This document shows positions 852 to 40,819 of a stretch of DNA of 40,819 nt, piece by piece. Numbering within the stretch: the first letter of the stretch is position 1; the number at the start of each line of letters is the position of its first letter. This DNA comes from a virus. Below the pieces are notes generated by a model. The model had not been told where the DNA came from. It ran no database searches and saw only the letters and a list, made by a program, of their open reading frames with translations. Location of the stretch: positions 1 through 40,819 of IMG/VR virus record IMGVR_UViG_3300045146_000269. The stretch is one strand, 5' to 3'. The translations under genes and the position numbers were made by a program.

Positions 852-2021
852 ATGAAAATGCTCCTGTTCTTAATCTTTTTATCAATAACCGTAAATTTAT
901 ATGCTGTGCCAGATAATACAATGACTATACCGACTGTTTCAGATGGAGATACAATCGAGGCAAGCGAACATAATACCGCAAGAAATACCATATCTTCAAC
1001 CTATAATGCACATTCCCATAGTGATATAACAAGTCTTTCAAATTTAGGAACAGTGGGAACATTGTCAACTGGCGTATGGAATGGAACTGTTATAACTGCG
1101 ACTTATGGTGGAACAGGCGCGGCCACTTTAACTGATGGCGGAATACTGCTTGGTTCGGGAACTGGAGCAATAACAGCGATGAGCGTTTTAGCAGATGGAG
1201 AAATGATAGTGGGAGATGGGACAACCGATCCAGTAGCTGAAAGCGGGGCAACATTAAGAACTTCCATAGGTGTAGCGATAGGAACCGATGTCCAAGCGTA
1301 TGACGCTCAACTTGCTGATTTAGCGGATGGGACTTTAAGCGGAAGTTCAACTGTTAATGTAGGGACTGCCGCAACAGGAGTTTTACCAGTAGCTAATGGC
1401 GGAACTGGTTCTACAAGCGGAATGTCTCAATTATTCACTTCTGATGGTAATTTTACTGTTCCTGCTGGCGTAACTACCGTATATATCACTATGGTAGGTG
1501 GTGGGGGTGGCGGTGGAAAAGCGGGTAATTCTTCAGGTGGGTGCGGCGGGGCAGGTGGCGGTGGACAAGCTATTATAAAATATCCATATACTGTAACAGC
1601 AGAAGCGACATATGCAGTAGATGTAGGTGCAGCTGGCACAGCGGGAACAGGTGGAAATGGTGGCGCAGGAGCAAATAGCACTTTTGACACTACGGGAGTG
1701 GTAGCTTTAGGCGGAAATTATGGCGCGGCAGGTTCAGGACTAACTCCTGGGGCTTCTGGCGCAGTAAGCAGTTCTTTAACTGGAAGTAGAGGTGCTACTG
1801 TAGGAGGGAAAGGCGTAGGAGGCGGAGCTGGAGGAACTAATGATGGGAATACTGCTGCTTCAGGAGGAGGGTCAGTATTTGGGATAGGAGGGGCTGGCGG
1901 GGACCAAGGAGGTAACGGTTCTGCCCCAGCATCAGGTTATGGAGGTGGCGGGGGAGGAGGTTCTCCAACTACAGGAAATGGTGGAGCAGGAAAAATAGGG
2001 TTTGTGTTAGTGGAGTGGTAA
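852..2021 (+). CDS. Tail fibre / adhesin with glycine-rich tip and Sec signal
   Basis: The ATG at 852 follows GAGGTAAC and gives a signal peptide of about 18 residues ending in NLYA, so I prefer it to the in-frame start at 816. The middle carries tail-fibre spacer repeats (GGTGAATLTDGG, VANGGTGSTSG). The C-terminal 200 residues start with FTSDGNFTVPAGVTTVYITM and continue as long glycine runs, ending in FVLVEW. This is the pattern of the glycine-rich receptor-binding tips of phage fibres, where polyglycine II helices pack together. Role inferred: host-surface recognition. A signal peptide on a tail fibre is unusual. Confidence 0.75.
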   Translation: MKMLLFLIFLSITVNLYAVPDNTMTIPTVSDGDTIEASEHNTARNTISSTYNAHSHSDITSLSNLGTVGTLSTGVWNGTVITATYGGTGAATLTDGGILLGSGTGAITAMSVLADGEMIVGDGTTDPVAESGATLRTSIGVAIGTDVQAYDAQLADLADGTLSGSSTVNVGTAATGVLPVANGGTGSTSGMSQLFTSDGNFTVPAGVTTVYITMVGGGGGGGKAGNSSGGCGGAGGGGQAIIKYPYTVTAEATYAVDVGAAGTAGTGGNGGAGANSTFDTTGVVALGGNYGAAGSGLTPGASGAVSSSLTGSRGATVGGKGVGGGAGGTNDGNTAASGGGSVFGIGGAGGDQGGNGSAPASGYGGGGGGGSPTTGNGGAGKIGFVLVEW

Positions 2022-6009: not shown

Positions 6010-6336
6010 ATGGGTAAAACCAATAAGGTAAATATCATAGCAGGACTTCATAAGGTATTTAACTATGAGTCAATTGCTGTATCAACTACCATCGTTAGCT
6101 TAACTGCTTCAAAATATACAGATACCGACGGTGATATGGCTAAAAGATGTGTTATAAAAGTGGAAAATGGACAACTCCGCTACCGTATGGATGGCGAAAA
6201 TCCCACCACGACTGAAGGGATGTTATTAAATCCTATGGATATTCTTGTTATACTTGGAACGCAGAATATAGAGAATTTTAGGGCTATAAGAAAGACATCA
6301 ACTGACAGCAAGATATTCGTTCAATATGAAATATAA
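6010..6336 (+). CDS. Small phage structural protein (FRAIR-type)
   Basis: A protein of 108 residues, all beta. It contains the pattern VIKVENGQLRYRMDGENPTT followed by LNPMDILVILGTQNIENFRAIR. I recognise this as a small structural domain frequent in phage head and tail modules, where a strand with YR.DG..PT precedes a closing FRAIR strand. The exact place in the virion is not known. The last bases overlap the start of the next gene by 11. Confidence 0.55.
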   Translation: MGKTNKVNIIAGLHKVFNYESIAVSTTIVSLTASKYTDTDGDMAKRCVIKVENGQLRYRMDGENPTTTEGMLLNPMDILVILGTQNIENFRAIRKTSTDSKIFVQYEI

Positions 6337-8404: not shown

Positions 8405-8722
8405 ATGAGATATATATTATTATTCATTCTACTATTACCGATTAATTGTTTCGCGCAGAGTTATACGAAAATTAATAACAACACTTATAAGAAAAAGATT
8501 ACCATTATCGAGACTATAAATAAGACGGCTTTACAGAATGATATTAAAGAGCTTGAACAGAAGATAATTTCCTGTGAAAATGAAATAATTCCGATACCGG
8601 ATAATATAGACGATAGAATTATAACTCTCATAAACCAGAGGAATGAGTTTACTATTGGGGAAAAGTTAATGTTTAAGGAAGAACTTAAAGAGAAGTTAGA
8701 ATTACTTGATAATTTAAAATGA
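8405..8722 (+). CDS. Small secreted coiled-coil protein between adhesins
   Basis: A protein of 105 residues with a signal peptide (MRYILLFILLLPINCFA, cleavage before QSYTK). The mature part is a short Asn/Lys-rich strand region, then two helices (ALQNDIKELEQKIISCENEI and LMFKEELKEKLELLDNL) likely to form a coiled coil. GGAG precedes the start. The last ATGA overlaps the following large adhesin, so it may be its chaperone or assembly partner. No family recognised. Confidence 0.6.
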   Translation: MRYILLFILLLPINCFAQSYTKINNNTYKKKITIIETINKTALQNDIKELEQKIISCENEIIPIPDNIDDRIITLINQRNEFTIGEKLMFKEELKEKLELLDNLK

Positions 8723-10953
8723 AGAAATTATTTATAATATTAATGGTACTTTTTTCTGTGAATACTTTATATGGTGCGATAACGGTTAATACAATAGACA
8801 AACCATACCTTTGGGTAGAGGCAACAACGGGTGGAAGTTTATCTGCAGCTACTTACTATTTTATTGGATTTGAAGCATTTGAATCAACAAATGGTCCGTA
8901 TTATGGATATTGTCCTGGGCAGGTTTCTGACCAAGTATCCGTTACAACTGACGCAACAAATAATAACATTAAAATGGAAATATACCAACAAGGAGGCAGT
9001 GTAACCGCTTATGCTGATACTGGTGATTCAACACATGTTACGGTTACAACTTCTGTGGCCCATGGTAAATCTAATGGAGATACGGTATATTTGCGAGGCA
9101 CAACAAATTATACTGGATACTATACAATATCAAGTGTGACATCGAACACTTTTGATATTGTAGCTACATGGGTTTCTGATGATGGGGCAAGTAAGTGGTT
9201 TTCTAATACTGGAACTACCACAAAACCAACCAGTTATCCACATACAGTAGCATTTTTCTTTAAGTGGGATTATTATTCAATGCTTCGTGGCGATGGAACT
9301 CCTTTTCAATGGCTCAATACGAATGATACTGCGGCAGGAGGAGGCGTAGGAATTACAAATGAATGGGTAGGCACATCAACAAATCACTCAACTTATGGAC
9401 ATACTCGCTGGGGTGGTTCGTATTATTATGTAGGATATCCGTCTACTTCATGGTCAACATCGAGTGCTGGGACTGGAAGTTATAAATATAGATATTTATC
9501 TGCTGTTTCTATTACATCTTCTCAAGTTCAATGGAATACTACAAATTTATATGAAAGAAGTGATACAACTTCCAATTCAGTTAATGGTCTTATGGCGCAT
9601 CCACAAATTTCAATGAGAAAATATACTGATAGTGCTGGGACAATTAAAGGCTATGCCCTACCTGATGGAATGAGTGATACTGCTTCGGCGATTTTAATTT
9701 TTATTGACAATTCAGACTATAATAATAATTGGCGTGATTTAATAACTGCCCTTAAATCAGCGAATGTTATTGGTGGTTCGGCAATTATATCTTATGATGC
9801 AAAACTTGCTGGAACTTCTGCTGATGAAACCAAGAACAATTTTTTAGCATTTAGAGGATTGATTATAGTTCAAAATGCGACTTTCACTACGCAACCAGTA
9901 TGGTATTTTAAAACGATAGAAATGTTTCATAGTCGAATAACTTGTGGTTCAACAACAGACCAATCTAAAATGCTTAAACTTTCTGGTTGTTTGGTCTCAA
10001 ACTTTGCATTAGCACAGAGTTTCTGGGAACAGCCAACGGTTTCCGTAGAAGATACCAGATGGATGTCAGATGCTGCATTAATTCTTGATAATTTTTATGC
10101 CGTTAATTTTACTCCATCTTGCACAAATGGTACAATGACTGCATATACCTCAAAAGATGGTTGGACATTTGCTCAAAAAAGAAGTGCAACTACAGGATTT
10201 GTTCAGCAATTAAGAGGTGCGGCGGACGCATCTTATAACCGCAATATAAAGTATATCGGATTTAATTGTTACATAGAAGTTCAATCTGCGGCATTAAGAA
10301 CATGGGAACTTACTAATATAGAATTTACTAATATTTATTCAGATGTTGTACATGATAGTTCTGGAGCTTATAAAAATTGTGATATTGAATTTTCCCCAAA
10401 CGTAAATACGAATGGTCTCACAGTATACAGGACAGTAAATTGTTATAATGTAACTTCATCTGAAAGGTCCAATGGACTTGTAAGAGTTGCTTTTTGTCTT
10501 TTATCAGCTGGACCTCTTTATAATACTGACTCAGTTATGATTTTTAATTTTTTTAATCCAATAAACTTAAAGGTAACTGATGTAGATGGAAACGCAATAG
10601 AGAATGCAACTGTAACCATACAAAACAGCAAAGAGGTGCCCAGTGTTTATACCGACACAACTGACTCAAGTGGAGATATAGATGCTCAGAATGTTCTTTG
10701 TTATACAGTAGAATATAGTCCAAACGATGAAGATAGTTATGCTTCCAGTTCATCTGGGAATACGTATAAATTTTATTCAAAGACGACCGTATTTAATGAC
10801 TTGACTCTTACAATAGATAAAGATGGATATGAAACTTACAATGGGGTATTAAGTGATGTATTGGCTGAAAAGAATCTGACTATAGCGTTGACCTCTAAAA
10901 ATTATAAGAATAGGATTTATGATTCAGTATTATATGATGCGACAATAAACTAA
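8719..10953 (+). CDS. Large tail adhesin with C-terminal Ig-like domain and Sec signal
   Basis: A protein of 744 residues with a signal peptide of about 19 residues (MKKLFIILMVLFSVNTLYG). Around residues 95-155 lies a phage beta module (THVTVTTSVAHGKSNGDTVY followed by YTGYYTISSVTSNTFDI). The centre is rich in Ser, Thr, Tyr and Trp. From about residue 615, NLKVTDVDGNAIENATVTI, TDSSGDI and DGYETYNGVLS match a carboxypeptidase-regulatory or Ig-like fold that often ends phage surface proteins. Role inferred: second receptor-binding or host-surface protein. The gene is in an operon with the two before it. Confidence 0.65.
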   Translation: MKKLFIILMVLFSVNTLYGAITVNTIDKPYLWVEATTGGSLSAATYYFIGFEAFESTNGPYYGYCPGQVSDQVSVTTDATNNNIKMEIYQQGGSVTAYADTGDSTHVTVTTSVAHGKSNGDTVYLRGTTNYTGYYTISSVTSNTFDIVATWVSDDGASKWFSNTGTTTKPTSYPHTVAFFFKWDYYSMLRGDGTPFQWLNTNDTAAGGGVGITNEWVGTSTNHSTYGHTRWGGSYYYVGYPSTSWSTSSAGTGSYKYRYLSAVSITSSQVQWNTTNLYERSDTTSNSVNGLMAHPQISMRKYTDSAGTIKGYALPDGMSDTASAILIFIDNSDYNNNWRDLITALKSANVIGGSAIISYDAKLAGTSADETKNNFLAFRGLIIVQNATFTTQPVWYFKTIEMFHSRITCGSTTDQSKMLKLSGCLVSNFALAQSFWEQPTVSVEDTRWMSDAALILDNFYAVNFTPSCTNGTMTAYTSKDGWTFAQKRSATTGFVQQLRGAADASYNRNIKYIGFNCYIEVQSAALRTWELTNIEFTNIYSDVVHDSSGAYKNCDIEFSPNVNTNGLTVYRTVNCYNVTSSERSNGLVRVAFCLLSAGPLYNTDSVMIFNFFNPINLKVTDVDGNAIENATVTIQNSKEVPSVYTDTTDSSGDIDAQNVLCYTVEYSPNDEDSYASSSSGNTYKFYSKTTVFNDLTLTIDKDGYETYNGVLSDVLAEKNLTIALTSKNYKNRIYDSVLYDATIN

Positions 10954-12370: not shown

Positions 12371-12588
12371 TGGATTATTCGGAACTGATAAAACAAATAA
12401 GGGAGGCGGAACTTGCTTTAATAAAAGAGTGGTCTAAAGCAAGAACGATATTTACAGCTATGTTTTATATATCATTTATCTGCCTTATATTGAAACAGAT
12501 AAAAGTTCCGCCAGAACTTAATACTATAATATCAACATTGTTCGGATATTGGTTCGGACAAAAACAATCACAGGGGGGTAGCAAATGA
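12370..12588 (+). CDS. Holin-like small membrane protein
   Basis: A protein of 72 residues with a charged N-terminal helix, one membrane segment (about residues 27-44, IFTAMFYISFICLILKQI), a short break (KVPPEL), then a second weak segment (IISTLFGYWFGQKQS). A closing FGYWFG with a polar tail is common in small phage holin-like proteins. It overlaps the next gene, which has a signal peptide. A holin is a better fit here than in the multi-span protein upstream, but neither is proven. Confidence 0.5.
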   Translation: MDYSELIKQIREAELALIKEWSKARTIFTAMFYISFICLILKQIKVPPELNTIISTLFGYWFGQKQSQGGSK

Positions 12589-12989
12589 AGAAGATACTTT
12601 GTATCGCAGTAATGTTATTGTTAGTGGCAGGCGTGGCACAAGCAAGCATACTGGATAAGGTCGTAGATTATGTGAAGGAACGTCCCATGAAGTCGGGAAT
12701 TTCCTATGAGGTATTAGACCACGAAATCCTTGCTTCCGTAGGGACAGCTATCGTTCAAGACGCTTTTATCACAGGCGTAGACATAGACCTGCTTGTATCT
12801 GATACCGATAACGAGGTATTTGCAAGCGATAATAAGATAGTGTCTTTAGGGTTAAGCTATAACCTTAATATGACAGCGAATACCAAATTATCCATTGGCG
12901 GCGGATTTGGAACAAAAAGAATAGAAGATTTAAGGGATTTCGGCGAGAGTAAGACGCTTATATCAGCGTTACTAAAGTATAAATTCTAA
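12585..12989 (+). CDS. Small exported protein with outer-membrane beta-strand features
   Basis: A protein of 134 residues with a clear Sec signal (LLLVAGVAQA cleavage, before SILDK). The mature part has alternating polar and hydrophobic strands (SGISYEVLDHEI, ITGVDIDLLV, IVSLGLSYNLN, TKLSIGGGF) and ends LISALLKYKF. A C-terminal phenylalanine after an alternating strand is the recognition signal for outer-membrane barrel insertion. At about 113 mature residues it is short for an eight-strand barrel. Role inferred: host envelope change, for example superinfection exclusion. Confidence 0.6.
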   Translation: MKKILCIAVMLLLVAGVAQASILDKVVDYVKERPMKSGISYEVLDHEILASVGTAIVQDAFITGVDIDLLVSDTDNEVFASDNKIVSLGLSYNLNMTANTKLSIGGGFGTKRIEDLRDFGESKTLISALLKYKF

Positions 12990-13523: not shown

Positions 13524-13745
13524 ATGGGCTGGGGAAATGCTGTTGATAAGGTAGCTGGGATATTAGACGGGCTTTTTGGGTTATCGCCTGAACAAAAGAA
13601 GATAAAGCTCAAAAATAAGATAGATAAACTTGAAAGGGAAAAAAATGAATTACAGAAAAAACCTGCGAGTGTGGATATTGCTATTAAGTGTGAGCGTATT
13701 GATAATGACTGCAATATCCTGCGTAAGGAACTCAGGAACCTCTAA
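13524..13745 (+). CDS. Amphipathic/coiled-coil small protein, spanin-region
   Basis: A protein of 73 residues: an amphipathic N-terminal helix (GWGNAVDKVAGILDGLFGLS) then a charged coiled coil (KLKNKIDKLEREKNELQ) and a second helix (CERIDNDCNILRKELRNL). GGAGG precedes the start. A lipoprotein gene begins inside it in another frame, the nested layout of Rz/Rz1 spanin pairs. It lacks the usual N-terminal membrane helix of an i-spanin, so it may be a peripheral variant or a different small protein. Confidence 0.5.
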   Translation: MGWGNAVDKVAGILDGLFGLSPEQKKIKLKNKIDKLEREKNELQKKPASVDIAIKCERIDNDCNILRKELRNL

Positions 13746-13857
13746 GCCGAAAGCCTACCCTAAAATCTGGTGGGGAGATAAAGAGGCGATAAGGAGTTTT
13801 CTTAACGAAACGCCTTATATGGATTTTGTGATCCACACAAAGGATTATGTAGAATAG
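13645..13857 (+). CDS. Outer-membrane lipoprotein nested in upstream gene (o-spanin candidate)
   Basis: A protein of 70 residues with a lipoprotein signal: basic N-terminus (NYRKNLR), hydrophobic core, and a lipobox ending at Cys26 (TAISC). The mature 45 residues are Pro/Lys-rich then helical (AIRSFLNETPYMDFVI). The first 101 bases overlap the previous gene in a different frame, like Rz1 inside Rz. AAAGGG precedes the start. Role inferred: outer-membrane partner in the last lysis step, or another envelope lipoprotein. Confidence 0.55.
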   Translation: MNYRKNLRVWILLLSVSVLIMTAISCVRNSGTSKPKAYPKIWWGDKEAIRSFLNETPYMDFVIHTKDYVE

Positions 13858-18869: not shown

Positions 18870-18888
18870 AATGAAAGGGGGGGGAATT

Positions 18889-19158: not shown

Positions 19159-19174
19159 TCGGATAGGAGGAAAC

Positions 19175-23903: not shown

Positions 23904-24005
23904 ACATGAAAAATAATATATTTCGCAGTAAATACTACTTGCATAGCATTTGCATATAACAAGCAGTAAATACAAAGAGAAATTTTAAACTAAAAGGAGG
24001 CAGTT

Positions 24006-25192: not shown

Positions 25193-25454
25193 TAATAGTA
25201 AATATGTAAAAGATTATAAAAAAAGAAACCCTTTGAAAGCGATAATCGGCATGGTGGTTATAATTTTATGTATTGTCGGTATAGCGGTAAGTTTTCAAAT
25301 GGGTTTTAAATTAGGAGAAAAATCCTCAGACTCCGCATGGCTTGAATATGCCGAGACAGTGGAAGCTGAACTCGCTAAAAATGAACCCAAATTCAGCGAT
25401 AAAAAGTTAGATATTAAAGATTTGATAATGGATATGGGGAAGATACATAAATGA
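25173..25454 (+). CDS. Small single-span membrane protein
   Basis: A protein of 93 residues: basic N-terminal stretch (KLPKYDNSKYVKDYKKRNPLK), one membrane helix (about 24-46), then an acidic helical region (AWLEYAETVEAELAKNE). It overlaps NinG by 20 bases and the following lipoprotein by 4. An inner-membrane protein with a periplasmic tail is likely. Function unknown. Confidence 0.5.
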   Translation: MKLPKYDNSKYVKDYKKRNPLKAIIGMVVIILCIVGIAVSFQMGFKLGEKSSDSAWLEYAETVEAELAKNEPKFSDKKLDIKDLIMDMGKIHK

Positions 25455-25843
25455 AAAACCTATTTTTGATTTGTTTATTATTTGTGATATGCGGGTGTTC
25501 AATTCCGATACATATCTCTTATGATAAGACGACTCAATATAAACCATTAGCAAAGCCTATTAAAAAAATAATCCGAAAGATAACCAGTAAAGACGTATTC
25601 ATAAAGTCAATAATGATTGAATCCGACTCTTTAATACTCCCTTCAAAATTGACCGAATCAGAGGCTCTGGTTTTATGGGAAAACTATGAAAGGTCAGGTA
25701 TTTCTGGATTTTACAATTTTTTGATTAAAACTGATTTATTTAATAGATTGGATAAAATATATCTGAAATTTGTAAAAAAGATAAAAGCCCGCTCAAAAAT
25801 CCTTAAAAGGAAATCATATATCATTTATGTGGATAAAAACTAA
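25451..25843 (+). CDS. Lipoprotein
   Basis: A protein of 130 residues with a lipobox: MKNLFLICLLFVICGC, Cys16 with Ser after it, which favours sorting to the outer membrane. The mature part is basic and helical, containing IKKIIRKITSK and YLKFVKKIKARSKI. It follows a membrane protein gene by a 4-base overlap. A phage lipoprotein of this size could block reinfection, but nothing proves it. Confidence 0.55.
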   Translation: MKNLFLICLLFVICGCSIPIHISYDKTTQYKPLAKPIKKIIRKITSKDVFIKSIMIESDSLILPSKLTESEALVLWENYERSGISGFYNFLIKTDLFNRLDKIYLKFVKKIKARSKILKRKSYIIYVDKN

Positions 25844-28893: not shown

Positions 28894-30547
28894 GATTCTG
28901 GATTATGATTCAGCCATAGCAGAGGCGAAATCCGACAAGGTAGCCCTTGTGCTTTTGAGGGAGAAAAAAAGGTGGCTTTGCAAAAATGACCTTTTTTACC
29001 TGTGTTGTCTTACCAAAAACGACAAGATAAAAGAATTTGGCGATTATTACATGCCTTTCTGCGAAGAAGTGAGCCTGATGAACTGGCTTATTGTTAAAAA
29101 GGGCATACACACGCAAAACAGCGAAATGCTTAAGATAGAAGAAGTCACCGATAATCCTGATGAAGATTTGAAGTATCTTAAAAGGCTGTATCTTGCTCAT
29201 AGGACATTCTATAAAACCACGATAATCAGTAAAGTCCATTCGCTTCAGCTGCTTCTTAACTTTCCGAATATACATATGGTTTTAGCCCATAATAAGCAGG
29301 AGAACGCCTCTGACAACCTTGTGGCAATCAAGAATTATTTCTTGACTACGGAAGTCGGCAAGCTTTTTCCAGAATACGTTCCGGAGACTAAAGACTGGGG
29401 AAATATGTCTGGCTTCAGCGTGGCAGTAAGGACTGACTGGGGCAGAACTGAAGAAAACATTGAGGCAATAGGGGTTGACACAGAAGTTACAGGAAGGCAT
29501 TGGCAGGTGGCAAAGAAAAACGACTTGGTTACGGATAAATCAGTCACTACCGAAGACCAGATTAAAAAGACTCTTGAATGGGACGAGAGGTTTAACGTGG
29601 GGTTATTTGATAATCCGGAACTCCCTATACAGGATTATGAGGGAACGAGGTATCATTTCGCTGACCTTTATTCTACGAAGAAAAATGACCCGAACATAAA
29701 AATCTCTGAAATCCCGCTTTTAAAAGACCAGGATCCATCTAATTTATCGGAAAAAAATATATCCAATCCTAAAAGGTTCACTTCTCAGGGTATCAAAATG
29801 ATGCAGGCGGATATGTGGACTTTCATGTGCCAGCATATGTTGAAACCGGAAGACCCTTCAAAAAACCAGTTTAAATCGGGCATGATTAGTTATTTTACCG
29901 CTATACCTGACTGCAATTATTATCTACTGGTAGATCCCGCTTCCAAAAGAAAGAAGAAAAACGATTTTACGGTTATGCTGATTGTGGGAATTGACAGCGA
30001 GAATAATAAGTATATTGTGGACGGGGTAAGGGATAAATTAGACCCGAAGCAAAGAATAGATACTGCTATCCAGCTCGCTTTAAAGTGGGCTATTAAGGGG
30101 TGCGGGTGGGAGGCGATAGCGTTCCAAGAGACTGATTGTTATTACTTTGAGGAAGAACGTAGGAAAAAAAGGATATTTTTCACTTTGGAAGAAATAAAGT
30201 CTAATAATATTTCAAAAGAAGATAGGATTAGAAGCTTAATCCCGGAATATTCCAATCATAAATGGCTGTGGCCGAATAAGGGCGCGCTTATTAAATACAG
30301 TTTTTACTCCGGAAGGAACTATGACCTGACCGAAGAAATGGAATTTGAGTTCAGGCAATTCCCTTTATGCGAACACGACGACTTGCTTGATACCATGACT
30401 TTTTTAAACAGGATTTCAATCATAAAGCCTGAGAAGGTTAAAGATATCGAAGATAAACCCATGACATTCGGGGAATATGCGAGGCTTACGGATGAAAATA
30501 GAGCCTTAAATAGAAATATATGGAGCAGATTATATGCGGCTAATTAG
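28862..30547 (+). CDS. terL: Terminase large subunit
   Basis: A protein of 561 residues, close to the usual TerL size. The ATPase half has a divergent Walker A region (AHRTFYKTT, residues 112-120). HWQVAKKNDLVTDKSVTTEDQ is a TerL-type segment near residue 215. The nuclease half has LLVDPASKRKKKNDF with D358, FQETDC with E423, and HDDLLD with D506/D507, the metal-binding acids. It cuts and pumps DNA into the prohead at the portal. The start has no clear ribosome binding site and overlaps the preceding small gene. Confidence 0.85.
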   Translation: MIKLRQAIENKILDYDSAIAEAKSDKVALVLLREKKRWLCKNDLFYLCCLTKNDKIKEFGDYYMPFCEEVSLMNWLIVKKGIHTQNSEMLKIEEVTDNPDEDLKYLKRLYLAHRTFYKTTIISKVHSLQLLLNFPNIHMVLAHNKQENASDNLVAIKNYFLTTEVGKLFPEYVPETKDWGNMSGFSVAVRTDWGRTEENIEAIGVDTEVTGRHWQVAKKNDLVTDKSVTTEDQIKKTLEWDERFNVGLFDNPELPIQDYEGTRYHFADLYSTKKNDPNIKISEIPLLKDQDPSNLSEKNISNPKRFTSQGIKMMQADMWTFMCQHMLKPEDPSKNQFKSGMISYFTAIPDCNYYLLVDPASKRKKKNDFTVMLIVGIDSENNKYIVDGVRDKLDPKQRIDTAIQLALKWAIKGCGWEAIAFQETDCYYFEEERRKKRIFFTLEEIKSNNISKEDRIRSLIPEYSNHKWLWPNKGALIKYSFYSGRNYDLTEEMEFEFRQFPLCEHDDLLDTMTFLNRISIIKPEKVKDIEDKPMTFGEYARLTDENRALNRNIWSRLYAAN

Positions 30548-30902
30548 TCCTATAGTTTTAATTTTACTGATAACGGTAAACGCTTTCGCGGCTATACCAA
30601 TATACTGTCCTAACTGCAGGGAACATATATACGATTACCAAAAGAATAAGATAGAACTTTATGATAAGTTATATGCTGAAGATTTTAAACCATCGAAGGA
30701 CAGCATAAAGCAACCTGAAGAACCAGATGAAATGACCTGCCCTTTATGCGGAAAATATTTTGACGGGTGGAATTATTATTCTTATCATAATAAATGTATA
30801 ATTAGGAATATAATAAACAGTATAGTGTTATTAACTAAGGATAGTAAAGGTTTTAAATGGATACCGTATGATATAGCGGATACTCCGTATTCAAGGGAAT
30901 AA
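30534..30902 (+). CDS. Exported zinc-ribbon protein
   Basis: A protein of 122 residues with a Sec signal peptide (LILLITVNAFA cleavage) followed by IYCPNCREH and later CPLCGKYF plus YHNKC, giving two zinc-binding pairs with an acidic linker between. GGAGCAG precedes the start, inside the end of TerL. A signal peptide on a zinc-ribbon protein is odd, because such domains usually act in the cytoplasm. Confidence 0.55.
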   Translation: MRLISPIVLILLITVNAFAAIPIYCPNCREHIYDYQKNKIELYDKLYAEDFKPSKDSIKQPEEPDEMTCPLCGKYFDGWNYYSYHNKCIIRNIINSIVLLTKDSKGFKWIPYDIADTPYSRE

Positions 30903-30996: not shown

Positions 30997-33054
30997 ATGA
31001 CACAAAAAGAAATCAAGATGTGGCAGGCAAGAATACAATCGGCGGAGGATTTGCAAAGTAAAGTCGCTGAGGCGAGAAAACAGACTATAAAACTTTACAC
31101 AGGGACTTTTTTCGGGAATCCATACAGGGAGAATGAGCTTACCGAAGTGAATTTTGTATATGAATTTATGGAAGTCCTTGTATCGAGTATTTATGCCAGA
31201 AACCCGTATATTTTTGTGAGGAGTTATTCTGGGAGATGGGCGGCATTCGCCGAGACAATGGAAACAGTCATAAACTATTACTGGAAAGAAAAGCTCGCCA
31301 AAAAGAAAATTATCCAATGTATCAAAGATTCAGCTTTACAACCGCCAGGCTTTGTGGAGATAGGTTATACGCTTCTTTCCGAGAAGAACAAAATTATAAC
31401 GGAGATAGAGTCGGATTACCCTGAACTTAAAGAGGTCAGGAATAGAAAAGAAAAGGTAGAATCTGAACAAGGGGTTCTCGATGAGACCATAAAAGAGGAT
31501 GATGTGTTCCTGAATTATGTTTCAAGCTGGGATATCCTCTGGCCTGATGGTTACCATGATATAAGGCTTGAATGCCCGTATATAATAAAAAGGCAGAAAA
31601 TAAGTTATCTTGATTTAATCGCTAATCCTATCTATAAACCTTCAAAATATAAATTAAAAGGATTAAGACAAACGCAGATTGAGCGCAGGCCTACGGTATT
31701 CAACATGAAAGCATGGGTATCTACCAATGACGATTTTGACGCCGATTTGGAACAACTGAATATAATACTTTACCATGTATTCGATAAAAGAGGCCATAAA
31801 AGATTTATTTTAGCTAAAAATTTCCTTGAGGATACTCTCTTTGAAGGAGAGTGGAATTATTTTATAGACGGATTTACTTTCTATCCTTTGATATTTAACG
31901 AAGTTCCGAGAGTGGATGAAGAAGCTAACTCATATCCAATGTCGGATATTGCCCCCATGATACCGCAGCTTAAAGAACTTAGTTATATATCTTCAGCTAT
32001 GAATAAGCACCGAAAAAGAGCGGGGACTCTTTTGGTGGGTAAGAAAGGCTCTATTACTGAAACTGACGCCACTAAAATTCAAAATGCTTCTGATGTGGAT
32101 TTGATATTGTTGGAAAGTTTAAGCGAACAGGATTTAAGAGGATTTACTCCGCCAGCTTTACCTCAGGATTTTTACACTTTAAGAGAAGTATATTTGCAGG
32201 ATTTAATGAGGATTTCAGGATATAACCAGCTTCTGGGAAATGCAAGGGGAATAGAAACAGCCACTGAAAGCGAGAATGTAAGGATAGGTTCGCAGATGAG
32301 GCAGTCTAAAAAAGTGGATACTATCGAAGATTTTACGGTAGAAGTTTCAAAAGGATTAGCTGGTTTAATATGGCAGTTCATACAGGATAAAAAACGGATA
32401 GAAGAAATCATAGGCGAGGAAGTGACAGAGGAGATGTGGCCAAGCCTTCCGAGAAATTCCGATGGAAGCGTGAACGAAGCTGAAGCGAGAAGGATGATAC
32501 AAAGAGACTTGCATTTTAAGATAGACGCTGGCTCGACACAGCCTCCTAAAGATGTGGCGATAGAACGCAGGCAATGGGAAAATCTGGCTGGCGTTATAAG
32601 AGCAAATTTTCCGAATAGGATAAAAGAGGATGTATTTTTAAAACAACTTCTTAAAAAATATGACGCCCATGATATAGATAACATGGTGATAGGTTTTGAC
32701 GATGAGGAGATAGTTACTGCTCAGGAAGAAAATAAGCTCCTTTTGAAAGGAATACCGCAGATAGTCGGGCCGAATGAAAACGACATGCTTCATTTGAAAG
32801 TCCATTCTCAGGCATATCAGGTGACAGGGCTTAATATCACAAGGGAAATGGACGAACATATTTTAAAACATAATGAAAATATGCTTAGGAAGAATCCAGC
32901 ACTTGTTCCGCAAAAAGGAGACAGTAAGATTGCGCCTAAGACCACTACTCCGAATATTAACCGTCAGGGTGTTCCTGATTATGTAGATATAGCGTCAGGA
33001 GCTAAAGGCGTAAAAGACATGGGTCAAAACAAAGGGGGAGGGATTACGAAATGA
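30997..33054 (+). CDS. Portal protein
   Basis: A protein of 685 residues; the start at 30997 (GGAAAGGG upstream) avoids coding through the terminator. Features: an N-terminal helix (EDLQSKVAEARKQTIKLYTG), AFAETMETVINYYWKEK, a long stem-type helix region with SSAMNKHRKRAGTLLVGKKGS, and an end rich in polar residues. Size and place after TerL and before the scaffold and capsid genes fit the P22-type portal, the dodecameric ring through which DNA enters. Assigned mainly by context and length. Confidence 0.75.
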   Translation: MTQKEIKMWQARIQSAEDLQSKVAEARKQTIKLYTGTFFGNPYRENELTEVNFVYEFMEVLVSSIYARNPYIFVRSYSGRWAAFAETMETVINYYWKEKLAKKKIIQCIKDSALQPPGFVEIGYTLLSEKNKIITEIESDYPELKEVRNRKEKVESEQGVLDETIKEDDVFLNYVSSWDILWPDGYHDIRLECPYIIKRQKISYLDLIANPIYKPSKYKLKGLRQTQIERRPTVFNMKAWVSTNDDFDADLEQLNIILYHVFDKRGHKRFILAKNFLEDTLFEGEWNYFIDGFTFYPLIFNEVPRVDEEANSYPMSDIAPMIPQLKELSYISSAMNKHRKRAGTLLVGKKGSITETDATKIQNASDVDLILLESLSEQDLRGFTPPALPQDFYTLREVYLQDLMRISGYNQLLGNARGIETATESENVRIGSQMRQSKKVDTIEDFTVEVSKGLAGLIWQFIQDKKRIEEIIGEEVTEEMWPSLPRNSDGSVNEAEARRMIQRDLHFKIDAGSTQPPKDVAIERRQWENLAGVIRANFPNRIKEDVFLKQLLKKYDAHDIDNMVIGFDDEEIVTAQEENKLLLKGIPQIVGPNENDMLHLKVHSQAYQVTGLNITREMDEHILKHNENMLRKNPALVPQKGDSKIAPKTTTPNINRQGVPDYVDIASGAKGVKDMGQNKGGGITK

Positions 33055-34808: not shown

Positions 34809-35801
34809 ATGGCAGGAGAACTCTCATTAACGAGACAATATAATTATATTTACAGCATAATGAGAGATGAAGTAGAGCCGATTTTGTGGGATAACGTATC
34901 TACGAGGACTTCGCTTCTTTATAGGATGAAGGAACTCGGAGCTATAATAAAAACAGGCGGGAAACCTCATTTAAGATTTACTATTCTTAAAGAACTTCCC
35001 ACTGCTGTAGCTTATACAGATTTAGATACTATTACCCCTGTGAGAGGCTCTCCATTTACCTCTGCTGTATATAACTGGAAACAGATAGAAGTCCCTGTTC
35101 AGGTCTCTGGCCTTGATATGATTAAGACTGGGGATGATGGCATTGAGGATTTGCTTGGCGATTTAATAGAAACAGCCGAAATCGCAATGAGGGACGGTAT
35201 TGGTGGTTCAACGATAGGTATATACTCAGATGGCGATGAAGATACTCTTACAAAGTTATCGGGATTGGCGAATCATTTTACTTCATCTACTACAACTGGG
35301 ACAGTAGGAGGATTAAGCAGGGCGACATTGGCAAAATGGAGGCATCAGTCTCAAAATGTATCGTCAGCGTTTGATACCAACGGGTTAAATAGAATGACGA
35401 CACTTTTTAGGGAATGTTCCAGATATGATGAAACCCCTGATACGATAGTTTTAACAGGCGCGGCCTGGGATAACTATCTAAAGGAGACAACGAGGACATT
35501 CCAGACAAATCAACCGCATGCCGCAGATAGCGGAATGGTTGTGGACGCATTGTATCCGAATATCAGATTTGGAAATGCGTTAATAATCTATGATGATGGT
35601 TGTCCGGCTAACTACGGCTATTTCCTTAATTTGAGGAAATTTATCAGGTTATTCGTCAGAGAAGGAAGAGACGCAGAACTTGGCGATTTCATTAAATCAA
35701 AGGATAAGGATGATCTTGTCAGTTTCATTCTTTGGGCTGGAAACCTTATAAACACTAATCTTGCAAGAGGCGGAGTATTGCTTAATGCGGATACTTACTA
35801 A
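34809..35801 (+). CDS. Major capsid protein
   Basis: A protein of 330 residues. It contains a long helix with a loop (ELSLTRQYNYIYSIMRDE), a central IEVPVQVSGLDMIKTGDDG region, MRDGIGGSTIGIYSDG, and IVLTGAAWDNYLKETTRTF, the usual capsid-family order with an HK97-type fold probable. It is shorter than the P22 coat. AAAGG precedes the start, 19 bases after the scaffold. Most abundant protein of the virion by expectation. Confidence 0.8.
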   Translation: MAGELSLTRQYNYIYSIMRDEVEPILWDNVSTRTSLLYRMKELGAIIKTGGKPHLRFTILKELPTAVAYTDLDTITPVRGSPFTSAVYNWKQIEVPVQVSGLDMIKTGDDGIEDLLGDLIETAEIAMRDGIGGSTIGIYSDGDEDTLTKLSGLANHFTSSTTTGTVGGLSRATLAKWRHQSQNVSSAFDTNGLNRMTTLFRECSRYDETPDTIVLTGAAWDNYLKETTRTFQTNQPHAADSGMVVDALYPNIRFGNALIIYDDGCPANYGYFLNLRKFIRLFVREGRDAELGDFIKSKDKDDLVSFILWAGNLINTNLARGGVLLNADTY

Positions 35802-35812
35802 GGAGAGGAAAT

Positions 35813-36316
35813 ATGAAAAAACTATTTTTATTTTCTACTCTATTATTCGTAAGTATTTTAACGATTAGTGGAGTAGCTTTCGGATGGGGTTCAGGTGGAG
35901 GAGATGGTTCATATTATGGGCAACTTCAGGAATTAGCAGTATTTTACAATAATTCTGGAGTAAGGCTTGTTCATGGTATGGCTGTTATTCTTGATACATC
36001 TGGAACTGCTGGTTCAACTCTTGGAGCGTATGTTACAGGAGCGACAGCAAGTGCTGACAGCGATTATTGCGTGGGAGTTGTTAAGACAGCGGCAGACGCA
36101 AGTATGCCAGTAACGGTAGTTACAAGAGGGGCTATTGATACATTGGTTCAAGACTCCTCTGAAGCTATCAGTGCTGGCTCTGAAGTCGGGACAGCTGGAA
36201 CGGGGACGATAGGCTGTGTCGGGGCAGGAAGCAATCTCGGCGTGGCTTTGGAAAATGGAGATGGCACAGATGGAAGTTATTTATATATCTGGGTCAATCC
36301 TTCTTCTACCGATTAG
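35813..36316 (+). CDS. Capsid decoration protein with signal peptide
   Basis: A protein of 167 residues. The first 28 residues form a signal peptide (LFLFSTLLFVSILTIS, then GVAFG). The mature part is beta-rich with Gly, Ala, Ser, Thr: LVHGMAVILDTSGT, YCVGVVKTAAD, MPVTVVTRGAIDTLVQD, SEVGTAGTGTIG, ALENGDG, a pattern like the small head-decoration proteins placed after capsid genes. AGGAGAGG precedes the start. A signal sequence on a decoration protein is very unusual; see findings. Confidence 0.65.
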   Translation: MKKLFLFSTLLFVSILTISGVAFGWGSGGGDGSYYGQLQELAVFYNNSGVRLVHGMAVILDTSGTAGSTLGAYVTGATASADSDYCVGVVKTAADASMPVTVVTRGAIDTLVQDSSEAISAGSEVGTAGTGTIGCVGAGSNLGVALENGDGTDGSYLYIWVNPSSTD

Positions 36317-36322
36317 TTTAAT

Positions 36323-36355
36323 AATACGGGGGCTTAAAAGCCCCCGTATTCTTTT
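36323..36355 (+). terminator. Strong intrinsic terminator after decoration gene
   Basis: AATACGGGGGCTT (36323-36335) pairs with AAGCCCCCGTATT (36338-36350), a 13-bp stem with minimal loop, followed by CTTTT. Transcription should largely stop here, giving high capsid mRNA and less of the following genes. Confidence 0.9.
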
Positions 36356-37495
36356 ATGTGGATATTGACTAATATCTTAATATTTTTGTCTGCCATATTT
36401 TTTATTCCGTTTATACATGGGGATAATTTCTGCTTTCCTAAAAATGTGATTTTTATATTATTGGGATTTTGTATACTATCAACCTCTTTTATGAAAGAAA
36501 AAATCCAGTCATTTACTAATAAATGGCTTGGTTTTATTTTAATATATACGATACTTCAATTTATATGGTTTTTTTTCAAACCATTGATATTTATTATCAA
36601 TGGAAAAGTAGCATGGAATTTATGGAATTACATACCGACTATAAATGTAATACTTTCTATTTTTCTAATAAAGACTCTGGTTGAATATACGGATACTTTA
36701 CATAGATGGATAACTGTATCGAAGATTTTAATATGGGTTTCTTTCGGATTGGCTATATACGGAATTTTACAATATATAGGTTTAGATCAGATATTCAGCA
36801 GGTTTCAATGGATACTATTTACTAAATCAGGCAGAATGGTCACTTTTTTTGGGAATAGTATGCAGACAGGAAACTATTTAGCTGTATGTTCTCCTTTATG
36901 TTTAATGTTCAAGTCTTTAAAATACAAGATTATTTATGGGGTTATCCTTATAGCTATACTATTTACTCAAAGTGCTATTTCGATAGCAAGTTTTTTGATA
37001 GGTCTTTTAATTTATTTGCTTCTTACAAGGAAATTTAAATGGTGTATTGTGGTAATTTTATTTTCTATTGCAGGGGCATTGGTATTAAATTCATTTAATC
37101 CAGATGTATGGAGTTTTGGTTCAAGATTAAGTTTATGGGAAAAAATATTTGTTAGTTCAACTGATTATTGTTTTACAGGCAGAGGATTAGGCAGTTTTGC
37201 AAATATGGTTTATTCAGATACAAAAACTTCTGCTATAGTAGGCGCGGCGCAATTTGAATTATTGCAGATATTCCATGATGGCGGGATTGTCATGTTAGGA
37301 TTATCTTTATGTTATTTATTCGGATTATTTATAAGATATTTATTTGCAGAAAACACCATGCTTTTAATTGGTTTTATATCGGCATTTATTTCCTATTTAG
37401 TTATGTGTTTCGGGAGTTCTCCTTTAAGAATAGCTCCATTAGCTTTAATAGGAATTTTATATATTTCAGGCATAGAAGTTCAACTTAAAAAATAG
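36356..37495 (+). CDS. O-antigen ligase/polymerase-like membrane protein
   Basis: A protein of 379 residues with about ten membrane helices. A polar loop between helices includes KSGRMVTFFGNSMQTGNYLA. A larger loop contains SRLSLWEKIFVSSTDYCFTG, RGLGSFANMV and ELLQIFHDGGIVMLG, the arrangement of the Wzy/WaaL superfamily (R..W, G.G.G.F, then E-LQ..-GG). These enzymes join or polymerise lipopolysaccharide O-units. Role inferred: changing host LPS to alter phage sensitivity. The ATG comes directly after the terminator T-run with no visible ribosome binding site. Confidence 0.65.
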   Translation: MWILTNILIFLSAIFFIPFIHGDNFCFPKNVIFILLGFCILSTSFMKEKIQSFTNKWLGFILIYTILQFIWFFFKPLIFIINGKVAWNLWNYIPTINVILSIFLIKTLVEYTDTLHRWITVSKILIWVSFGLAIYGILQYIGLDQIFSRFQWILFTKSGRMVTFFGNSMQTGNYLAVCSPLCLMFKSLKYKIIYGVILIAILFTQSAISIASFLIGLLIYLLLTRKFKWCIVVILFSIAGALVLNSFNPDVWSFGSRLSLWEKIFVSSTDYCFTGRGLGSFANMVYSDTKTSAIVGAAQFELLQIFHDGGIVMLGLSLCYLFGLFIRYLFAENTMLLIGFISAFISYLVMCFGSSPLRIAPLALIGILYISGIEVQLKK

Positions 37496-37503
37496 GGGGA
37501 AAT

Positions 37504-38154
37504 ATGGAAGAAAAGAGACCTGTAGGAAGACCGAGAGAAGATATAACTGAAACAGTTAATAATAAAATTCTCATTGATTTATCAACTTTAAAATTGGCTT
37601 CAGATACTCTTAAAAAAGAGGTAGAGAGATTGAATAATCTGAAAGTCAATATGGAAGCTGAAATACACGCTCTGGAGTTTAAAAAAGAAAATGTAGCAAA
37701 ATTGGATAAGGTAGATATCCAGAAACAAGTATATGACGAGGAAGTTCGCCTTAATAAAAAAGCGTCTGAACTTGACTCAAGGGAACAGGCATTGACTAAT
37801 AGAGAAACTTCCTTTAAAGACAGACTTAAAATGCTTGAGGAAAGAGAGCAGTCTTTACTCAATTTAGAAGAAAAAAAGAAGGAGTTAGCAGAGGAACGAA
37901 GCAGGTTTTTTAAATACAAATTTGACTTGGAAAGAGAACTTGAAACAGCGAAAATCACGATAGAAGAAGCAAAGGCTATAGAGAATGATTACACCATTAA
38001 AGAAAATGCCCTTAAAGCAAGGGAAATAAAAATACAAAAGCAGGAGAAATACTGGAATGACGAAATAGGCAAGCTGGAACATGATAAAAAAGAATTTCAG
38101 ATGGAAAAAGAAAACATACTGGCTTTAAAACAGATGGAGGTAAAAAATGGCTAA
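37504..38154 (+). CDS. Coiled-coil virion-region protein 1
   Basis: A protein of 216 residues. It starts EEKRPVGRPREDI, which includes an AT-hook-like GRPR, and then is one long charged coiled coil (heptads from about residue 20 to 200). GGGGG precedes the start. It overlaps the next, similar gene by 8 bases. It may be an internal capsid or assembly protein. No known family. Confidence 0.5.
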   Translation: MEEKRPVGRPREDITETVNNKILIDLSTLKLASDTLKKEVERLNNLKVNMEAEIHALEFKKENVAKLDKVDIQKQVYDEEVRLNKKASELDSREQALTNRETSFKDRLKMLEEREQSLLNLEEKKKELAEERSRFFKYKFDLERELETAKITIEEAKAIENDYTIKENALKAREIKIQKQEKYWNDEIGKLEHDKKEFQMEKENILALKQMEVKNG

Positions 38155-38587
38155 GGTAGAAGTAGATTTGCAAAAATTGTCAACGCTGGATAAGGAAATA
38201 GAAATACTTACAAGAAAAAGAAATGTATTAGAAAATGATATTGAATTAAGGGAAAAGGAGATTTTAAAAAAAGAAGATAGAAGCGAAAAGTCAATCAGAC
38301 AAAAAGAAGAAGATTTAAAGATTAAGATTTCTGAATCGGAATTAATGATAAAAGAAAAAGAAAAATCTCTTAATATCAGAGAAAAGCAGATTAAAAAGAG
38401 AGAAGATGAATTGGAAATTATACACGAAGAAGCTAAGAAACTTAATAAAGCCCGTTCTGAACTATCTAACGTTCAAAAGGAAACAGAAGAAGCAAGTGCG
38501 AGGGTATTAGAGAAAGAGAATCTGTTAAAACTTAAAATATCGCAATATGAGGACAAGTTAAAGGAACTTGAAACCATAACGAGGTAA
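38147..38587 (+). CDS. Coiled-coil virion-region protein 2
   Basis: A protein of 146 residues, entirely charged coiled coil (LDKEIEILTRKRNVLENDIE, REKQIKKREDELEIIHEEAK, ELSNVQKETEEAS). It resembles the preceding protein in composition and the use of EK...R runs and may be its duplicate. It ends 2 bases before the tail adaptor start. Function unknown. Confidence 0.5.
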   Translation: MAKVEVDLQKLSTLDKEIEILTRKRNVLENDIELREKEILKKEDRSEKSIRQKEEDLKIKISESELMIKEKEKSLNIREKQIKKREDELEIIHEEAKKLNKARSELSNVQKETEEASARVLEKENLLKLKISQYEDKLKELETITR

Positions 38588-38589
38588 CT

Positions 38590-39705
38590 ATGGATTTTGG
38601 CACAATTTTATCGAGGGTAGAATCCCTAACGCTTGTTACTACGCAGGATGATTTGATTAAAGATAGTATTCGCATGGGGCTTGATAGAGCCACTTCAGCG
38701 GATCTGCCTTACCTGATGACAGATGGGTTTTTCACGACAGTCGCTCCTTATGAAACAGGCACAGTGGCAATGACTAACAACTCGAAAACAGTCACAGGAA
38801 CTGGAACTGTCTGGACTTCCGCTATGGTTGGAAGGAAAATCCGTTTTAATGGAGAGAATGCTTATTACAGGATTGCTTCTGTAGCAAGCAATACAAGTTT
38901 GACTCTTGAAGTGGTATATCAGGGGACAACGGATACTGATGCAACATATTCTATTTATAAGGATGAATATAAGCTCCCAGCTGATTGCGATGTATATAAA
39001 ATCCTGCGTCAGATAGAGAACTCCCAAGCTCTTACAAGTGTAGAAGCGACTGCATTTGATATTTACGAGTCGACTCCCCAATCCAAAGGCCATCCTGATT
39101 ATGAAATTCTTGTAGGCACTAAACTTGATACCTATTCAACTGGAACTGTATCTGGCACAATAAATACATCAGTAATAACTGGAGCTTCAACCGAATGGAC
39201 TTCAGTAGAAGGACTGTCAAAAGGCAGTAAAATCACCATTGGCAGTTATATCTATACTGTAAAATCCGTAGATAGCGATACTCAGATTACTATCTATGAG
39301 AAACTTGCAGTAGCAGTAGCTATTTTAACAACTTATTCGATATCGTTAGATAACTATATAATCCAGTTATTCAATATACCTGATAGCGTGGAAAATATCT
39401 ATTTCAGGTATCAAAGGATGCCTTTTTATCTTTATAACACTACCGATATTCCTGATTTGCCAGAAAAATATCACTGGATACTTATCCATGCTGGTTCTAT
39501 ATGGGCGTGGCTTACAAAAGATAAGGCAAGAAGCGACACTGAGCAACTTATTTTTGAACAGGCAATAAAACAAATGTGGCAGAGAATTGGTTATCCTTCT
39601 TTATCAAGGGTATATTCGAGAATATCTCAGGATGAAATAATGAAAAGAAACTCTTACACAAAAGCTAACTTACCAAACGGATATGGTTATCCTCAAAAGG
39701 TATAA
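38590..39705 (+). CDS. Tail adaptor protein (P22 gp4-like) with two inserted beta repeats
   Basis: A protein of 371 residues. The N-terminus (GTILSRVESLTLVTTQDDLIKDSIRMGL) and the C-terminal part (EKYHWILIHAGSIWAWL) fit a short-tail adaptor that joins portal and tail hub. Between them lie two related beta modules: GTVAMTNNSKTVTGTGTVWT then GENAYYRIASVASNTSLTLEV, and GTVSGTINTSVITGASTEWT then YTVKSVDSDTQITIYEK, each closed by TYSI. This is an internal duplication. GAGGTAAC precedes the start; the tail hub begins 23 bases inside it. Confidence 0.6.
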   Translation: MDFGTILSRVESLTLVTTQDDLIKDSIRMGLDRATSADLPYLMTDGFFTTVAPYETGTVAMTNNSKTVTGTGTVWTSAMVGRKIRFNGENAYYRIASVASNTSLTLEVVYQGTTDTDATYSIYKDEYKLPADCDVYKILRQIENSQALTSVEATAFDIYESTPQSKGHPDYEILVGTKLDTYSTGTVSGTINTSVITGASTEWTSVEGLSKGSKITIGSYIYTVKSVDSDTQITIYEKLAVAVAILTTYSISLDNYIIQLFNIPDSVENIYFRYQRMPFYLYNTTDIPDLPEKYHWILIHAGSIWAWLTKDKARSDTEQLIFEQAIKQMWQRIGYPSLSRVYSRISQDEIMKRNSYTKANLPNGYGYPQKV

Positions 39706-40819
39706 AAAACTTCTAACAATATTAGCGGTTCTATCTATACCAGTTATAGCATATTCTTCCTTAAACTGGGTTCAATATTCCTATTTTAAAAATGTAAAAG
39801 GTCTTAATAACGCTTTCAGCCCGATAGCTATTGAAGATAATGAAGCGAGTGATTTACAAAATATAATATTTTCTACATCTGGGTCATTTAAGAAAAGAAG
39901 CGGTTTTACGGATATAAATGATGACAGATATGGCGCAACAACAGGAATTAAATATGTAAAGTTTTCTGATGGCAAGGAACAAATATTCATAATATCATCT
40001 GACGATAAAGTTTATAAAATGGATTATGGCTCATCTGGGCCTGATGGAATATTAGATGATATTACTGGAGGTTTAAGTTTTTCAATAGGTCAGAATAACC
40101 TTGCCAGTTTTGCGGTAGGAGAAAATACTGTAGTTATAGAAGATGGGCTTAATACTACGCCTCCTATGGCATATCACGACGAAGCTGTATCTTGCGTAAC
40201 GTTAGCAGGAAGCCCTCCAAATGCTACAGTAGTGGCTTATCATAAAAATCAGGGATTTTGCGCTGGAAACTCAGCATATCCTTCAACTCTTTATTTTACC
40301 GATGTAGGAAATTTATTAAATTGGACTACTGGATTAAGCGGGAATATAGATGTAGAGAATAACGATGGTTCTATTATCAGGGCATTGGTGCCTGGTTTTG
40401 ACGCTTTATATATATTCAAAGATAATTCTATATTCAGATTAACTGGGGACGATAAGGATAATTTTCAACTTCAAAGGATGGTGCAGGGAATAGGCGTAAT
40501 GTCTTCGCAGGCAGTATCTTTGATAGGAAATCAGTTTTTTCTTACGACAGGGCAAGGTGAAGTATATATCTATGATGGAGCGGTAGGCGTAACTAAAATC
40601 TCAAATAAGATAGAGGGGTCTTTAAAGATAAATACTGCATATTCAAGATATCCTTATCTTTCAACATTAGAATATCTTGATGATTATTATTTATCCGTTT
40701 CTTCAAGCAGTTCTGGCACGAATGATACGGTATTTATGTTTGATACCTTCAATATGGCATGGACAAAGTTTAGCGGTATAAATTCAAACGCTTGGACAGT
40801 ATTTGATGATGGGACAGGG
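39683..40819 (+). CDS. Tail hub / DNA-stabilisation protein (P22 gp10-like), N-terminal part
   Basis: The start ATG at 39683 gives VILKRYKKLLTILAVLSI, a Sec-type signal with a cleavage site near VIAYS, then a mature beta-rich protein: DGKEQIFIISSDDKVYKM, VAYHKNQGFCAGNSAYPS, YIFKDNSIFRLTGDDK and FFLTTGQGEVYIYDG, repeated four-stranded-like blades. The frame runs to the window end and continues in bases 1-588 for a product of about 527 residues. Part of the tail that seals the portal. The signal peptide is unexpected for it. Confidence 0.65.
   Translation, partial: MVILKRYKKLLTILAVLSIPVIAYSSLNWVQYSYFKNVKGLNNAFSPIAIEDNEASDLQNIIFSTSGSFKKRSGFTDINDDRYGATTGIKYVKFSDGKEQIFIISSDDKVYKMDYGSSGPDGILDDITGGLSFSIGQNNLASFAVGENTVVIEDGLNTTPPMAYHDEAVSCVTLAGSPPNATVVAYHKNQGFCAGNSAYPSTLYFTDVGNLLNWTTGLSGNIDVENNDGSIIRALVPGFDALYIFKDNSIFRLTGDDKDNFQLQRMVQGIGVMSSQAVSLIGNQFFLTTGQGEVYIYDGAVGVTKISNKIEGSLKINTAYSRYPYLSTLEYLDDYYLSVSSSSSGTNDTVFMFDTFNMAWTKFSGINSNAWTVFDDGTG
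40679..40819. repeat. Terminal direct repeat, right copy
   Basis: Copy of bases 1-141, with G instead of A at 40805. It lies inside the tail hub gene, so the cut is within an open frame, consistent with a circular map rather than true ends. Confidence 0.95.

Follow-up and report, generated by a model that had tools for sequence, protein, structure and literature searches.

Sec signal peptides on candidate outer virion proteins in a clade of podovirus-like phages: a possible assembly step outside the cytoplasm

The IMG/VR virus record IMGVR_UViG_3300045146_000269, a stretch of 40,819 bases analyzed here at its full length (the window), raises the question of why presumed outer virion proteins of a tailed phage should begin with signal peptides (SPs) for the Sec export pathway. 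In the textbook account known to us, tailed-phage assembly is wholly cytoplasmic, and we know of no tailed phage whose particles are completed elsewhere. A first-pass annotation of the window had placed Sec SPs on a hub, two fibres, a large adhesin, a capsid decoration protein and several genes beside them. All of these genes are present at the named starts, every one shows a basic n-region followed by a hydrophobic core and an Ala- or Gly-type cleavage site, and our own scoring agrees with the assignment. The range given there for the feature, 36316-39683, is simply the gap between two of the genes. Genes are referred to below by their first position in the window.

Signal-peptide scores in the window and its relatives

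Our SP score rewards positive charge in the n-region, a hydrophobic core free of charges, and small side chains at positions -3 and -1, with a threshold of 12. For calibration, exported Escherichia coli proteins from a 50-kb stretch of K-12 scored 13.3-14.2, all lambda and P22 virion proteins scored below 12, and 31 of 31 HMO-2011 proteins scored below 10. Lambda Lom, Bor and Rz1, which are no components of the virion but function in lysis or the host envelope, scored 12.9-14.0; they carry the same kind of signal sequence as the window proteins, at similar scores. Because membrane-anchored proteins, among them MalG and the Rz spanins, also exceeded 12, proteins with further membrane spans were left out of later counts. 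Ten window genes scored 12.9-15.8 (30534, 35813, 39683, 560, 852, 6326, 8405, 8719, 12585 and 25451), and all others scored 10 or less. In total, the window encodes canonical Sec SPs on nine proteins, plus two putative lipoproteins (25451 and 13645).

The first relative, a syntenic contig at about 54% identity, came from a search with the hub (39683), and alignment searches with capsid, portal, hub and 35813 proteins added more. The clade, a group of uncultured phages, comprises the window, G001, G002, G003, G004, G005 and G021 and the short contigs L008, L046, L047 and L051, and the relatives carry hubs 46-58% identical to the window hub. The most distant member is G021, which is circular with a 144-bp repeat (hub 46% identical, Wzy_C-type membrane protein 27%). 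No relative came from viral_contigs or genome_contigs when searched with the capsid protein, or from genome_contigs when searched with the portal alignment, and INPHARED records matched none of the 35813, 36356, 852 and portal proteins.

Across the clade, 53 of 296 genes of at least 60 aa scored 12 or higher, compared with 3 of 362 in nine outgroup phages. The background, measured on minus-strand open reading frames (ORFs) that are mostly non-coding, was 4 of 264. Chance hydrophobic starts were rejected on the basis of these counts; Fisher tests were computed but are descriptive only, as the clade members are related. The clade SPs have distinct n-, h- and c-regions with small residues at -3 and -1, and their scores (12.1-15.9) compare with 13.3-14.2 for the E. 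coli controls. As expected of Sec substrates, the mature chains begin poor in positive charge (mean net charge -0.8 versus +0.1). Gln at position +1, the Bacteroidota rule, occurs in only 3 of 48 SPs, which leaves a Bacteroidota-type (Q-rule) host unsupported. With SPs this canonical, the host with unusual cleavage rules that the first-pass annotation had offered as one explanation is unneeded. Disulfide formation as the reason for export was also set aside, the mature SP-bearing proteins being mostly Cys-poor and their Cys counts often odd. Judged from sequence, the SP-bearing products of the clade are well supported as Sec substrates.

The signals are kept on orthologues of the hub (6/6), 35813 (8/8, with L046), 560 (6/6), the 852 fibre (6/6) and the 6326 fibre (3/3). 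The count for 560 includes G005 with its start shifted to an upstream ATG at 24138, and the count for 852 includes G003, where the called frame is longer and the start was taken at an internal ATG. Among the capsid, portal, scaffold, adaptor and ejection-like orthologues of the clade genomes, none reaches the SP threshold; clade SPs occur only on presumed outer virion proteins and a number of accessory ones. In six families, conservation is lower in the SP than over the 100 residues that follow (0.21-0.41 versus 0.35-0.51), yet the SP score is maintained: the sequence drifts without loss of the basic start, the hydrophobic core or the position of the cut. The cut position in the hub, 560 and 852 families is fixed relative to the conserved mature start, with the best-scoring cut a few residues off in some members. 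Within the 30534 family (window 30534-30902; L003:627-1016; L047:1338), a signal peptidase I (SPase I) signal and a lipobox replace one another among relatives, indicating that export itself, and not a particular hydrophobic stretch, is conserved.

The hub N-terminus and the start sites

The SP of the hub stands, and the protein, labeled a tail hub in the first pass, is better named a head-closure protein. It belongs to the HMO-2011 gp44/P22 gp10-type head-closure family (phrog_3287, E = 2e-18; phrog_578 "head closure Hc3", E = 4e-7 in the relative G004), and its gene sits between the adaptor and fibre genes of the late block in the window and in relatives. A profile built from six clade hubs matches nine IMG/VR outgroup hubs and HMO-2011 gp44 at E values of 4e-9 to 9e-36; the gp44 match (E = 9e-36) spans profile positions 30-513, nearly the full length. 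P22 gp10, which the profile does not match, was added for comparison and likewise lacks an SP.

An SP-bearing N-terminal extension is present in 6/6 clade hubs and 0/10 outgroup hubs. In the matches that reach the N-terminus, outgroup residue 7-23 aligns to profile position 27-34; the outgroup hubs start about where the clade SP ends, which is the start of the mature clade hub, and so does P22 gp10. The hub of Microcystis phage MaAM05, for example, begins MRTFQFFDNAGGIN, and clade hubs past the predicted cut read EITWAHFDFFDNSGGIN and similar. Homologue alignment had been named in the first pass as a comparison that could tell against the SPs, and in it the clade orthologues keep the hydrophobic segment and the distant ones begin at the mature start. 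Most likely, the SP was gained ahead of an old head-closure protein in this clade; loss of the SP in every outgroup is less likely. The SP is a variant feature of clade hubs and is not defining for the hub fold.

The claim that these are not just wrongly called starts is borne out by the homologues, the conserved cut positions and the lack of alternative starts. Between the first codon of the SP and the conserved core, neither the window hub, 35813 and 6326 genes nor the G001 and G004 hub genes offer another in-frame ATG, GTG or TTG. As had also been stated, starts are backed by gene overlap or a ribosome-binding site (RBS): the hub, 6326 and 8719 overlap the upstream gene, and 35813, 852 and 8405 have RBSs. 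Wrong starts are ruled out for the window, G001 and G004 hubs unless a non-standard start codon is used, and likewise for window 35813 and 6326. PDB sequence searches with the hub, Wzy_C and 35813 profiles returned nothing useful.

The SP of the 35813 protein holds in its orthologues, and the decoration role given to it in the first pass is putative and taken from its position. Sequence searches found no match to a known decoration protein or to any family, and the AlphaFold2 model has a predicted local distance difference test (pLDDT) score of 35. Likewise, the SP of 8719 stands and the adhesin role is unproven. The N-terminus of the 852 fibre shares a short motif with an outgroup fibre in G018, and its homology to SP-less outgroup fibres is no more than suggestive.

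Gene order and other features of the window

The window carries a 141-bp, 99% direct repeat at its ends and is therefore a circular podovirus-like genome of about 40.7 kb (map about 40,678 bp). The hub frame is continuous across the join, so the coordinates do wrap through the circle, as first annotated. The repeat (1-141 versus 40679-40819) is inexact and produces an N/D difference in the hub, which is slight assembly or strain variation at the circle join.

Gene calls were made with a simple script, and the labels scaffold-like and ejection-like reflect position and composition only. The late block begins with an SLT-type endolysin (28352, PF01464), terminase (28862, phrog_38), the SP protein 30534 and portal (30997). 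Next are scaffold-like 33956, major capsid 34809, the SP protein 35813, the Wzy_C-type 36356 and the coiled-coil 37504 and 38147, followed by adaptor-like 38590, the hub through the join, the SP protein 560, fibre 852 and GNAT 2024. Ejection-like 2499, 3638 and 4756, then 6010 and the SP proteins 6326, 8405 and 8719, end the block (Table 1). The clade is like the HMO-2011- and P22-type short-tailed phages in the near full-length hub homology to HMO-2011 gp44 and in the order portal, scaffold, capsid, adaptor, hub, fibres. Unlike the clade, those phages lack SPs on their tested virion proteins, and a search of 14 outgroup records found no Wzy_C gene beside the capsid gene.

Table 1. Signal-bearing genes of the window and selected genes without a signal; SP ranges are approximate.
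Feature	Position	Strand	Details
Head-closure "hub"	39683..40819, through join to 588	+	SP about 39683-39751 (MVILKRYKKLLTILAVLSIPVIA); phrog_3287 E 2e-18 from residue 35
Hub remainder past join	1..588	+	First 141 bases repeat window end; frame continuous
Protein directly after major capsid gene, putative head decoration	35813..36316	+	SP about 35813-35884; score 13.0
Small tail-block protein, PPPL motif after SP	560..844	+	SP about 560-625; no family match
Glycine-rich tail fibre	852..2021	+	SP about 852-905; phrog_863 "tail fiber assembly" E 9e-23, PF21722
Fibre-like, repeated GNVGIG motifs	6326..8395	+	SP about 6326-6385; repeat family D4
Small SP-bearing protein	8405..8722	+	SP about 8405-8455; score 13.7
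Large SP-bearing protein, putative adhesin	8719..10953	+	SP about 8719-8775; score 13.0; CarboxypepD_reg weak, below cut-off
SP-bearing protein, possible outer-membrane barrel (Phe end; barrel inferred)	12585..12989	+	SP about 12585-12644; score 15.8
SP-bearing Cys-pair (zinc-ribbon-like) protein, terminase-portal gap	30534..30902	+	SP about 30534-30590
Putative lipoprotein, lipobox TAISC	13645..13857	+	Translation read by eye, unscored
Putative lipoprotein, lipobox ICGC	25451..25843	+	SP score 12.9 with lipobox
Wzy_C-superfamily membrane protein directly after 35813	36356..37495	+	PF04932 (orthologues), AlphaFold2
Major capsid protein, without SP (contrast)	34809..35801	+	phrog_9953 E 4e-29
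Portal, without SP (contrast)	30997..33054	+	phrog_12082 E 0.001
Adaptor-like, inserted repeats, without SP (contrast)	38590..39705	+	PF24175 SU10 adaptor 26.9 bits vs cut-off 27; phrog_1980 etc.

Several other features were seen along the way. Two repeats in the adaptor-like protein (38590-39705), one at residues about 54-124 and one at about 181-250, match the beginning of tail-fibre families. The GNAT acetyltransferase gene (2024-2497), located after the 852 fibre gene and ahead of the ejection-like ones, is also present in G003 and G005. In G003 (flipped; 2265, minus strand), a lysozyme-like protein seemingly has its own SP, and the window SLT endolysin 28352 has none. A group I intron (RF00028, 72 bits, L048:15294-15518) with an ORF of 249 aa, perhaps encoding its homing endonuclease, splits the major capsid gene of G004 (L048:13968-15785; G004 17251-19068). 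The G003 capsid gene (L045:12867-14087) is also split, into 314 and 74 aa, and its extra stretch of roughly 220 nt has no Rfam match. Elsewhere in the window, a 21-nt repeat occurs 18 times in tandem at 19140-19685 and encodes a (LRAESDK)n-type protein, and an 18-nt repeat with at least 14 tandem copies at 23988-24365 gives the 24006 protein an N-terminal run of GVNxSH-type repeats. An SNF2/DEAD-type helicase and an N6/N4 DNA methylase are fused in one 757-aa protein (19941-22214).

Where the exported proteins may join the particle

Export itself is a well-supported prediction, and from it we infer the place where assembly ends: we lean, by a little, toward outer virion proteins being exported by Sec and then joining DNA-filled heads outside the cytoplasm. 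The hub, post-capsid protein and fibres, which would form the outside of the virion, carry ordinary Sec SPs. Their precursors would use the host Sec channel to pass the inner membrane (a strong prediction from sequence), be cut by signal peptidase and then probably wait in the periplasm. Heads would be built and filled with DNA in the cytoplasm, because the capsid, scaffold, portal, adaptor and ejection proteins lack SPs. When the inner membrane opens at lysis, or through a membrane-linked step, the exported parts would attach to the filled heads, and the particle would then be complete. In extracts, tailspikes of P22 can be added to finished heads, so post-lysis joining of outer parts is not unreasonable. 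Among the three mechanisms put forward in the first pass, an envelope-associated assembly step is the best fit.

The gene encoding the Wzy_C-type membrane protein (36356) lies directly after the SP-bearing 35813 gene in 7/7 clade genomes that cover the region and in 0/14 outgroup records. Five orthologues were tested against PF04932 (O-antigen ligase superfamily): three scored above the cut-off (46, 44 and 62 bits), the window copy scored below it (18 bits), and L048 gave no match. The AlphaFold2 model of 36356 has a predicted template modeling (pTM) score of 0.83, and its best PDB match is 6pl6, a chain of the RodA-PBP2 peptidoglycan synthase complex (probability 0.99, E = 0.13, template modeling score 0.46). 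The model is compatible with the fold of lipid-linked sugar enzymes. Foldseek against viral proteins gave one match, an uncharacterised Arthrobacter phage protein (probability 0.99, E = 0.095). The 36356 family is like the Wzy_C superfamily (WaaL, Wzy, PglL) in the PF04932 matches of three of five orthologues and in a compatible predicted fold, and unlike it in the position of the gene in a phage late block and in a loop His kept in only 3 of 7 members. The superfamily includes protein O-oligosaccharyltransferases, and one could speculate that 36356 first adds a host lipid-linked glycan to the exported parts. Such periplasmic glycosylation is an attractive but unproven extension; a change of host serotype is the plainer alternative role for 36356. 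The fuller scheme is a split assembly line, in which the head-closure, post-capsid and fibre proteins are exported by Sec and virions are completed outside the cytoplasm, possibly after Wzy_C-type glycosylation, the inner and outer parts being held in separate compartments until release. We put this forward tentatively, at somewhat below even chances.

Three points weigh against completion outside the cytoplasm or its extension. The hardest step is that, with the hub absent from the cytoplasm, filled heads must keep their DNA otherwise; the adaptor-like 38590, with its inserted repeats, could retain it. The virion membership of 35813, 560, 6326, 8405 and 8719 is putative, being assigned by position or composition. 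The loop His of the HNxxL motif, which we take to be the catalytic motif of the superfamily, aligned in only 3 of 7 Wzy_C proteins, so that catalysis by 36356 is uncertain and glycosylation doubtful.

The best surviving alternative is partial export, in which an unexported cytoplasmic pool builds the virion and the exported pool serves as a decoy or blocks superinfection in the envelope. It would remove the head-closure problem; fibres and hubs contact receptors, which exported copies could block, and other phages export exclusion or envelope proteins, such as lambda Lom. However, the SPs are strong (scores 13-15), a hub and a post-capsid protein would be odd decoys, and only a single copy of each gene was seen, such that an efficient SP would starve the virion. 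We consider partial export unlikely. Decoy export alone, which the first pass had raised, fits poorly for the same reason, with only one hub gene seen per genome.

Rather improbable, in our judgment, is that export serves mainly for periplasmic glycosylation of the outer virion proteins by 36356 as a PglL-like O-oligosaccharyltransferase. The conserved place of its gene next to an SP gene, the PF04932 matches, the known members of the superfamily and 6pl6 as the best fold match all speak for it. Against these stand the E value of only 0.13 for 6pl6, the loop His count, the lack of any PglL-type family match in Pfam or NCBIfam, and O-antigen serotype conversion of the host as a plainer role.

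Uncut anchors are less probable again. Here the hydrophobic starts would keep hub, fibres and post-capsid protein tethered at the membrane, which would be the site of assembly; some starts could act as signal anchors, and membrane-linked assembly would join both compartments. However, small-residue cut sites lie at a constant distance from the conserved mature start (hub, 560, 852), the 30534 family swaps to lipoboxes, and outgroup hubs begin at the mature position.

Propeptides cut by a phage prohead protease have a published precedent in Porphyromonas gingivalis prophages, where some proteins have predicted SPs: those on capsid proteins were ascribed to such cutting, and others follow the Bacteroidota Q rule (PMC10367356). 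The clade differs in that Gln at +1 is rare. We think propeptides very improbable here: the head block yielded no match to a protease family, the clade capsid protein has no such start, and the segments have the full n-h-c Sec design with one family swapping to lipoboxes. Equally remote is that the proteins really begin past the hydrophobic segments; RBS scores of 0 at some upstream-overlapping starts (hub, 6326) would allow it, but several members lack ATG, GTG or TTG between SP and core and the n-h-c design is kept in 6-8 members per family.

Besides the P. gingivalis prophages, the nearest published case is the use of Sec by a filamentous phage coat protein. M13-type phages (g3p) are like the clade in making virion proteins as precursors that bear Sec signal sequences (PMC8310372). 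M13-type phages differ in having no capsid filling or portal and in release by extrusion, whereas the clade has a terminase, a portal and an SLT endolysin. A search of PMC full text, in which absence is not proof because many subscription papers lie outside its coverage, found no report of Sec signals on tailed-phage hub, fibre or decoration proteins.

If true, conserved Sec SPs on outer proteins only, among them a member of the family responsible for closing the DNA exit, would place part of assembly somewhere other than the cytoplasm. Virion proteins would then be open to periplasmic chemistry, such as the addition of glycans or lipids, and infectious completion could be held back until lysis. 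A concrete question becomes testable with this clade: could tailed-phage particles be completed outside the cytoplasm?

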